Assembly (NCBI GenBank): GCA_013791765.1
Contig: VMTC01000031.1
Location: forward strand, 1-54,598
Direction: 5' to 3'
DNA: 54,598 bases
Origin: Rhodoferax sp.
Lineage (GTDB): Bacteria; Pseudomonadota; Gammaproteobacteria; Burkholderiales; Burkholderiaceae_C
The translations under genes and the position numbers were made by a program. Of the stretch, positions 1 through 33,556 are shown one piece after another; the first letter of the stretch is position 1, and each line of letters starts with the position of its first letter. The notes under the pieces were generated by a model. That model did not search any database and was not told the origin of the DNA. It saw only the letters and a list, made by a program, of their open reading frames with translations.

Positions 1-224
1 ACGTGCCCTTGAGCCAGGACATTGCCACGTATTTCAAGCGCGAAGTGTTGCCCCATGCGCCCGATGCCTGGATCGACCCCGACAAAACCAAGGTGGGCTA
101 CGAGATACCGTTCAACCGCCACTTTTACGTCTTCAAACCACCGCGCCCGCTGGCCGAGATTGATGCCGAGCTGAAGGGCGTGACCGACCGCATCCTGACG
201 ATGATCGGCGGGCTGACTGCATGA
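1..224 (+). CDS. hsdM: Type I restriction-modification methyltransferase subunit HsdM, C-terminal end (partial)
   Basis: This is the 3' end of a gene that starts left of the window. About 73 residues are visible and read through from base 3 without a break, ending at the TGA at 222-224. The tail, with YEIPFNRHFYVFKPPRP followed by a short helix, matches my memory of HsdM C-termini. The catalytic N6-adenine methylase domain (NPPF motif) lies outside the window and cannot be checked. Downstream genes for the specificity subunit (2321-3637) and the restriction subunit (4474-7599), on the same strand, support the call. HsdM methylates adenine within the bipartite site chosen by HsdS and forms the M2S core of the complex. 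Confidence 0.75.
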   Translation, partial: VPLSQDIATYFKREVLPHAPDAWIDPDKTKVGYEIPFNRHFYVFKPPRPLAEIDAELKGVTDRILTMIGGLTA

Positions 225-32225: not shown

Positions 32226-33014
32226 TCAGTTAGCGGGCGGCTGGCGCGCCGGGGCAAAGCAGTCGATGCGGTCGGTGATCAGGCCGTCGAGCCCCAGGTC
32301 GATCAGGCGCTGCGCCTGGGTCGGCTCGTTCACGGTGTAACTCAGCAGTCGAAACCCGGCGCTGCGCGCCTGGCTGCTTGATGCGGCGTCCCAGAGCAGC
32401 TGCTCGCAGACGATGGCAACGCAGTCCAGCGACCGGGCCGTCTCCAGCCAGCCGCTCCACAACGAATCGAGCAAGAGCGCGCGCGGCAGTTGCGGCTGGG
32501 CGCCCTGGGCGGCTTGCAGCGACTGCACATCAAAGGAGCTCAGTAGCGGTGGCACGGCTGCATCAGCCCAGAGCCGGGCCGCATGCTCGGCCACCACCGC
32601 ACCGGTCTGGCGCTCCAGGCCGGGTGTCGGCTTGATTTCCAGGTTCAGACAATAGGCGTTCGCCAGGCAAAAGTGCGCGATGGCGCCCAAGCTGGCGAGC
32701 GGCTCGCCGGCGAAAGCGCGCGAATGCCAGCTGCCGGCGTCCAACTGCGACAACGTGGCCCAGGGGTGGTCACCGCCCACGGCACTGAGCCCGGCACCCA
32801 ACTGCTCATGGGCGTTGCTGGTGCGCACCAGGGTATCGTCGTGCAGCAGGAAGGGCACGCCGTCCAGGCTCAGCTTGACGTCGCACTCGAACATGCGGTA
32901 GCCGTGGCTGGCGCCAACCCGAAACGCCGCCAGCGTGTTCTCGGGCGCCAGTTGGCCCGCGCCGCGGTGCGCGATCCAGCGCGGGTAGGGCCAGGGCTTG
33001 ACAGGATGGGGCAT
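32226..33014 (-). CDS. ugpQ: Glycerophosphodiester phosphodiesterase
   Basis: 262 residues. It hydrolyses glycerophosphodiesters to glycerol-3-phosphate and an alcohol. The GDPD catalytic motifs are IAHRGAGQLAPENTLAAF (about 14-31), FECDVKLSLDGVPFLLHDDT (about 43-62) and LNLEIKPT (about 123-130). The TIM-barrel end is LSYTVNEPTQAQRLIDLGLD, GLITDRID. No signal peptide is seen, so it is cytoplasmic, like UgpQ. No ugp transporter genes are adjacent. The stop abuts the end of the small membrane protein on the other strand. Confidence 0.92.
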   Translation of the reverse strand: MPHPVKPWPYPRWIAHRGAGQLAPENTLAAFRVGASHGYRMFECDVKLSLDGVPFLLHDDTLVRTSNAHEQLGAGLSAVGGDHPWATLSQLDAGSWHSRAFAGEPLASLGAIAHFCLANAYCLNLEIKPTPGLERQTGAVVAEHAARLWADAAVPPLLSSFDVQSLQAAQGAQPQLPRALLLDSLWSGWLETARSLDCVAIVCEQLLWDAASSSQARSAGFRLLSYTVNEPTQAQRLIDLGLDGLITDRIDCFAPARQPPAN

Positions 33015-33052: not shown

Positions 33053-33061
33053 GAGGTGTCC
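33053..33061 (+). repeat. Target-site duplication, left copy (GAGGTGTCC)
   Basis: The 9 bases GAGGTGTCC immediately precede the left end of the element at 33062 and occur again directly after its right end (33440-33448). This is the expected footprint of a transposition event. Confidence 0.75.
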
Positions 33062-33439
33062 GGGTGCGATTCAAAGTGAGTGTGGCACCCTGAAGATATC
33101 AAGCCTCACGTCAAGCCCGGCACTGCGTGTTGAACCCGGCCCGTCGAAGTCAGAATTTCTGCAGCAAACGGCCACATCAATTCGCGTCACACCCAACGCA
33201 GGTAATTTTTGAGTTCCCCTGATGCGTACCCAATCACTCGCAGAATCAGTCGGGTGATACGCTTTGCGGAGGTAAAGGAGGAGAACGCGAAGCGGGCGGG
33301 GGACACGTAGCAAAGCGTATCGCCCGGCTGATTCACCCACCACCGTGCTATCAGCCCCGATCCACGATCCAATAGACGCACCTGAGTGCTTCGGAAAAGA
33401 ATCATTGATCTAAAGCCCACCCCACTTTGAATCGCACCC
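33062..33439. mobile_element. Non-autonomous transposon (MITE-like), 378 bp
   Basis: The ends are perfect 17-bp inverted repeats, GGGTGCGATTCAAAGTG (33062-33078) and its complement (33423-33439), flanked by 9-bp direct repeats GAGGTGTCC. If the boundary is moved out by one base, the inverted repeats are 18 bp with a 7-bp duplication, so the exact ends are ambiguous. Frames of 88-90 codons cross it on the minus strand but run past an end or show no transposase motifs. An internal 24-bp hairpin lies at 33244-33333. It is too small to encode its own transposase and was presumably moved by an intact relative elsewhere. The parental IS family is not clear to me. Confidence 0.8.
33244..33333. repeat. 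24-bp inverted repeat inside the MITE-like element
   Basis: AATCAGTCGGGTGATACGCT, TTGC (33244-33267) pairs along its whole length with 33310-33333. The only two non-identical positions would be G-U pairs in RNA. The 42-base loop is GC-rich and contains GGAGGTAAAGGAGGAG. It could form a cruciform or, if transcribed, a very stable RNA hairpin. Confidence 0.75.
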
Positions 33440-33448
33440 GAGGTGTCC
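33440..33448 (+). repeat. Target-site duplication, right copy (GAGGTGTCC)
   Basis: An exact repeat of 33053-33061, directly after the right inverted repeat. Removing the element and one copy would restore a continuous ancestral intergenic sequence between the phosphodiesterase gene and the oxidoreductase gene. Confidence 0.75.
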
Positions 33449-33556
33449 ACCACGGCGGTAGGTGCATGTGCGCTGCGGTAACATCGCCTGCCCAGCCCGG
33501 GCGCGCCTGTCTTTTGTGCAGGGTTGCCGCAAGAGGGCTGTAATCACAAGAAACCG

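Follow-up and report, generated by a model that had tools for sequence, protein, structure and literature searches.

A Rhodoferax MITE family, probably mobilized by an ISKra4-type transposase, that seems to land preferentially upstream of promoters and carries conserved hairpin modules

What is the 378-bp segment that lies, bracketed by inverted ends and a repeated 9-mer, in the intergenic region of divergent phosphodiesterase and FAD-oxidase genes on a Rhodoferax contig, and by what means did it arrive there? In a preliminary description of the window, by which we mean the whole analysed stretch of 54,598 nucleotides, the segment had been called a MITE-like element of fairly recent insertion, without a transposase and with ends loosely recalling IS21. 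We read it as a non-autonomous transposon (MITE) mobilized in trans by an ISKra4-type transposase, landing near promoters and carrying captured hairpin modules, and assign this reading a probability of about 0.88. In the mechanism that we propose, an ISKra4-family (Mutator-like DDE) transposase, acting in trans, would bind the ends, and the element would be inserted at a staggered 9-bp cut. Landing would take place about 16 bp upstream of a −35 box with the promoter left standing, the right end of the window copy being placed 39 bp upstream of the putative −10 hexamer of the FAD-oxidase gene. The full form has two conserved hairpin modules, A and B, that look captured, and one of them, module B, was kept in the window copy. 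Coordinates of all features are collected in Table 1.

Table 1. Features of the element and its surroundings (window positions unless marked as rep positions).
Feature	Position	Strand	Remark
Glycerophosphodiester phosphodiesterase family gene (PF03009)	32226–33014	−	neighbour
Left copy of 9-bp target duplication GAGGTGTCC	33053–33061	.	single copy in G047 empty site
MITE-like element, 378 bp	33062–33439	+	internal-deletion derivative of ~508-bp form
Left terminal inverted repeat GGGTGCGATTCAAAGTG	33062–33078	+	consensus over 36 family ends, GGGTGCGATTCAAAGTGATGTGG
Internal-deletion junction	33138–33148	.	approximate; most of hairpin module A gone (rep positions ~80–212)
Module A, second hairpin	rep 69–212		mostly deleted in window copy
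Hairpin module B	33243–33334	+	25-bp stem, conserved purine-rich internal loop inside
Module B stem arms	33243–33267 and 33310–33334		92% complementary by Watson–Crick pairs
Module B core AAGGAGGAG-(apical part)-CGGGGGACA	33275–33305	+	part common to other genera
Right terminal inverted repeat	33423–33439	−	
Right copy of 9-bp target duplication	33440–33448	.	
−10-like hexamer TAACAT	33479–33484	+	39 bp outside right end, before FAD-oxidase gene; consensus match only
FAD-linked oxidase gene with 4Fe-4S and CCG domains, 1307 aa	33557–37480	+	neighbour

The dimensions given in the preliminary description (378 bp, 17-bp perfect inverted repeats and a 9-bp duplication) are exact. The inverted repeat extends over 33061–33078 and 33423–33440, 17 bp of it lying inside the duplication and the 18th pair being formed by flanking bases. 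When the window was scanned for exact matches, only 33062–33439 among 13 inverted 14-mer pairs within 3 kb has identical 9-mer flanks, and 40 Markov shuffles gave no inverted-repeat pair with matching 9-mer flanks, 17-bp inverted repeats by themselves arising at a mean of 0.075 per shuffle. The segment holds no transposase, as had been claimed: its ORFs of at least 60 aa lying mainly inside it are 88–90 aa long and on the minus strand, and in a full-length copy the longest stop-to-stop stretch is 94 aa. The relative with one uninterrupted GAGGTGTCC, for which a search had been proposed, was found within the genus. In G047 the two flanks are joined, colinear over 462 bp at 95% around a single 9-mer, and the phosphodiesterase of G047 is 90% identical to that of the window. 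The window segment is most simply an insertion that post-dates the split from G047.

Further copies, likewise proposed as a check, are many. The genome to which the window belongs (4.17 Mb in 136 contigs) returned 60 BLAST pieces with the 378-bp query, and the end 17-mer at up to 3 mismatches occurs there at 89 places, against 7 for the reversed control. For closer comparison we used the 24 end-to-end copies of this genome, copies cut by contig ends being uncounted; left out of this set were pairings of 703 and 724 bp, the second ends of which were judged chance, and one of 2271 bp (group II intron). The target duplication is an exact 9-mer in 8 of these copies, an exact 8-mer in one, and agrees at 8 of 9 positions in 6, at 7 of 9 in 2 and at 6 or fewer in 7; thus 17 of the 24 have a duplication of at least 7 of 9 positions or an exact 8-mer. 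Thirteen copies are 501–516 bp long. The window copy is without about 130 bp at the junction listed in Table 1, and other short copies are without different stretches. A long form of ~508 bp is also present in G047; G008 has long stretches of this form, and G005, G024 and G031 have its middle (71–409) without a break, for which reason the long form is taken as ancestral. Matches were obtained in 30 of the 100 genomes searched, the window's own included, all of them of one genus, evidently Rhodoferax; a plasmid collection searched in distant mode gave no match to the element. When the 24 copies were compared, the best between-copy identity was ~92–93%; the window copy reached 88% to its nearest counterpart. 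Contig ends fall inside copies of the element in at least 19 cases, so young, near-identical copies may be absent from the assembly. The MITE family is old and genus-wide, with dozens of copies in this one genome.

The ends of these copies, in turn, point to the enzyme that would move them. Scanning public genomes for the exact 17-mer gave at least 114 loci, with end pairs and a 9/9 duplication at no fewer than 19 loci among the matches listed, 17 of those under 600 bp. (Several of the exact-17-mer loci lie on MAG contigs titled Bordetella parapertussis or Klebsiella pneumoniae, species labels that look doubtful; the dated isolate names of these contigs resemble those of environmental-looking MAGs with the same ends.) ORFs were listed for four long end pairs of the scan, L243, L211, L195 and L216, and two of these are insertion sequences (ISs): L243, of 1405 bp, with 0 and 0 mismatches in its ends and a 9/9 duplication, and L211, of 1409 bp, with 0 and 1 mismatches and an 8/9 duplication. 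A profile search added L270, a 1421-bp IS in the same-genus G033 with 2 and 1 mismatches in its ends and with flanks GCACAAGGC / GCACAAGGA, a duplication of 8/9. Against the ISKra4 profile NF033572 (cut-off 205), L243 and L270 score 207.3 and 212.2 bits and L211 scores 190.3 bits, below the cut-off; in L243 and L211 the match falls in the second ORF. All three ISs have two ORFs in a −1 register, as read from their coordinates, with a run of 8 or 9 A; from this run on, L211 and L270 have an open −1 frame. The end consensus of the MITE, given in Table 1, was drawn from 36 ends of 18 of the 24 copies. In BLAST comparisons (E below 0.01), identity between the MITE and the ISs is limited to the ends, over ~23 bp. 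The possibility that the MITE is a deletion derivative of the L243, L211 or L270 ISs was rejected because identity stops after the ends. We hold with good confidence that the driver is an ISKra4-family (bacterial Mutator-like) transposase, and the MITE-like reading of the preliminary description is supported by further copies, an empty site and ISs with the same ends.

An IS with the same inverted repeats, the remaining proposed check, is present, but in other genomes. The window's own genome gave no match to the ISKra4 transposase profile NF033572, and within the genus this profile was matched in 8 of 89 genomes, one match being over the cut-off. Since no ISKra4 transposase was found there, mobilization in the window's own genome is a step that we infer, and, such a transposase being undetectable in this assembly, the family may be stranded, unless one re-enters or sits in an assembly gap. 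These results bear on the supposed recency of the insertion. An event most simply later than the split from G047 agrees with it; a nearest copy, of the 24 compared, that is only 88% identical, together with the lack of a detected ISKra4-type transposase in this genome, speaks against it. Among the long end pairs, L216 (759–2342) spans 1584 bp from end to end, shows an 8/9 duplication and has a 206-aa ORF, no transposase being recognized among its ORFs; this is possibly a MITE with a passenger gene.

The positions at which the copies lie relative to promoters were then compared with the habits of published relatives. Passages of Guerillot et al. 2014 (PMC3942029) report that TnGBS/ISLre2 elements insert 15–17 bp upstream of −35 boxes, that ISs of the ISKra4 group have the same upstream preference with a lower but similar signal, that a promoter signal is seen on both sides where the ends are nearly identical, and that the superfamily makes 8–9-bp duplications. 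In the 24 copies of the window's own genome, a −10-like hexamer stands at offset 38–40 from 14 of the 48 ends (13 of the 24 copies) against 1.4 expected, an excess that is post hoc, the offset having been first noticed in these very copies; the ends in other genomes are the fair test. There, such hexamers were found at offset 38–40 in 32 of 211 ends against 8.5 expected, the promoter-like sites being consensus matches only and the ends not all independent. A −10 at offset 39 would place the −35 at ~16. A second peak in the other genomes, almost as strong, lies at offset 28–30 (28 hits in the 211 ends); in a subset of 40 ends from relatives it is the larger one, with 10 hits against 5 at 38–40, and in the window's own genome it is rare (4 of 70 ends). 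Among the ISs, L270 has TATAAT at offset 39. No hexamer at offset 38–40 was found in 11 of the 24 copies, in L211 or in L243. The MITE thus seems to land preferentially just upstream of promoters, which would match the published habit of its relatives. A hybrid promoter, in which TTGAAT, reading outward from the inverted repeat, would be paired with TATGAT in the flank, was also considered and dropped: one site was seen against 0.2 expected, and in a test on 48 ends the three offsets concerned had 1, 0 and 1 hits, no enrichment over the 0.64 per offset found elsewhere.

The interior of the element proved to consist of conserved hairpins. In an alignment of 38 copies of module B, 95.9% of cells pair, and 14 of the 31 pairs are changed on both sides, a count reached by none of 500 shuffles, with slid controls giving 2–5. 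On the window's plus strand, G–U pairs stand to A–C mismatches as 80 to 8 in this alignment, and a cruder count over the helix gave 166 to 82 for the copies of Rhodoferax and 76 to 46 for those of other genera; because G–U pairs outnumber A–C mismatches there, the pattern suggests that the plus strand of module B may act as RNA. Module A has a covariation score of 0.139 against 0.051 in shuffles, with 38 against 10.7 cells changed on both sides; its 7 covarying pairs are reached by 46 of 500 shuffles and its number of pair types by 221 of 500, the structure having been predicted from the same alignment as that used in the covariation test. Neither module matches Rfam at gathering score, relaxing the thresholds brought nothing but sub-threshold hits to unrelated families in the element and the module B loci, and the window as a whole gave a single Rfam match, to a tRNA elsewhere in it. 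The interior is made of conserved hairpin modules rather than leftover IS sequence, and these modules look captured.

The module B core AAGGAGGAG-N7-37-CGGGGGACA was found in 11 of 398 genomes of the phylum, 7 of them of the window's family and 4 of one other family of the same class; the reversed core pattern gave one match each in 3 of the 398 genomes searched. Stem pairing is kept in the other genera, although the stem sequences vary greatly from genus to genus and in many cases from copy to copy. Around two sets of such loci, 7 and 9 in number, MITE ends were looked for and not found. At least one such unit, L368, is present in the window's own genome; its stem is unrelated, and the 2.4 kb fetched there contain no MITE ends. 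Module B therefore probably has a distribution beyond the MITE, into which it was captured. Its units are often divergent pairs ~140–245 bp apart, and at three module B loci with ORFs listed they apparently lie between genes. L369–L377 are loci of other genera and of the second family at which hairpins resembling module B, with other stems, stand in divergent pairs; the loci tested here had no Rfam match at gathering score. REP repeats have a conserved stem with GTAG/GGAG. In often forming divergent hairpin pairs, the module B units that lie outside the MITE recall REP/BIME repeats with RAYT transposases; unlike those repeats, module B consists of variable stems around a conserved internal loop. 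A search of 13 genomes for Y1 transposases found them in 12; since G592, with 17 cores, has no Y1_Tnp match, a Y1 (RAYT) driver of module B is unlikely, and a RAYT/REP origin is not supported. For module A, a search of 119 other genomes of the family detected similar hairpins in two, G880 with 10 matches and G883 with one weak match. The stretches fetched around these hairpins had no good MITE ends, and the ORF lists of L406, L407 and L413 no autonomous carrier. At L413 (925–2515, G883), a locus picked up with the module A model, a 221-aa ORF is enclosed by two inverted repeats of 400 bp (78%) that lie ~800 bp apart.

With both ends and interior in view, other explanations can be weighed. That the driver or parent was an IS of another family, either of a 9-bp-duplication type such as IS5/IS903, where ISAba12 is placed, or of IS21, we consider very improbable. 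ISAba12 does make 9-bp duplications and is the proposed driver of MITEAba12 in the passages of PMC6382973 devoted to that element, but its end, GGCTTTGTTGCACAAA, is a different sequence; IS5/IS903, considered for the 9-bp duplication, was rejected on end sequence. The three ISs that do have the ends of our family all code for ISKra4-type enzymes, so that the likeness to IS21 drawn in the preliminary description is not supported, and the promoter distance fits ISKra4/ISLre2. Within the long end pairs, L195 (2085–4921) offers a different candidate in that matching ends with a 9/9 duplication surround a 681-aa PF21804 (Transposase_29) protein, which might itself move the MITE family. This is a single case among the four long end pairs with ORFs listed, a perfect inner 18-bp inverted repeat just inside the ends (noted by eye) suggests a second element nested in a MITE, and the ISKra4-type enzymes were found in three different hosts; we regard movement by PF21804 as extremely improbable.

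The modules raise another alternative, namely that selection keeps a functional RNA or repeat unit at each locus, its likeness to a MITE being superficial. Compensatory change in modules A and B, and the occurrence of module B without these ends in other genera, argue for it. The duplications, the empty site, the different sites occupied and the many internal deletions, however, show a segment that moves as a unit, the loss of module A is tolerated, and modules and mobility are compatible; we regard this alternative as highly improbable. Mobilization in trans by an ISKra4-type transposase remains our reading of the segment. A bolder version of it, which we put forward as unlikely, would have the family be a mobile regulatory cassette that seeks promoters and repeatedly delivers one or two structured RNA modules, selected at the RNA level, at a fixed position just upstream of host promoters. 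As part of this same unlikely version, the modules would have been recruited from a wider, undescribed class of hairpin repeats of the window's bacterial family and one other family of its class.

Set beside known systems, the MITE resembles the ISKra4 family (p-MULT 4 Mutator-like ISs), as portrayed in passages of PMC3942029, in that its ends are common over ~23 bp to those of NF033572-type ISs, and also in its 8–9-bp duplication, its near-perfect inverted ends and the over-representation, at a fixed spacing from either end, of promoter-like sites; it differs in being without a transposase and in having an unrelated interior with hairpin modules. The driver ISs found here have two ORFs in a −1 relation, an arrangement that the same passages of PMC3942029 describe for the ISMich2 group, whereas it is in the ISKra4 group that they place promoter targeting; the elements here seem to combine the two. 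Bacterial MITEs with 9-bp duplications and IS identity only at the terminal repeats were already known from MITEAba12/ISAba12 of Acinetobacter (passages of PMC6382973). MITEAba12 is, in contrast, 113 bp long, has another end sequence and a proposed driver IS resident in the same genome, and a conserved structured interior is not among its features as described in those passages. Open-licence PMC papers, to which our literature search was confined, yielded no ISKra4-family MITE, no Rhodoferax MITE and no description of this MITE family or of module B. What the present analysis adds is the assignment to ISKra4, an excess of promoter-like sites at a set distance from the ends of a family that is non-autonomous, and a cargo of conserved hairpins. 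A probable driver is thereby named for a previously unassigned MITE, and insertion targeted to promoters, known from publications on conjugative elements and on Mutator-like ISs that are autonomous, is suggested for a non-autonomous family too. If true, this would provide a natural library of insertions at fixed distance from promoters, dozens of them in one genome. As for the interior, its modules indicate a class of conserved hairpins unmatched in Rfam, the strand and function of which are directly testable.

Some individual copies depart from the common form. At L034 (673–2943; C30:59672–61942 of the window's own genome), a MITE copy is interrupted near one end by a group II intron-like insert whose reverse transcriptase ORF, a TIGR04416 match below the cut-off, is apparently split into two frames. 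In the same genome, a 710-bp copy on C100 (L048, 998–1707) has ~190 extra bases beside module B and a perfect 9-bp duplication. The copy at L155 (203–599, the same place as L212) has inverted, not direct, 10-bp flanking repeats, GGCATCAGGC / GCCTGATGCC. A 565-bp relative at L137 (380–944, the same place as L255 6379–6943) has a 9/9 duplication and module A at both ends, in inverted orientation.
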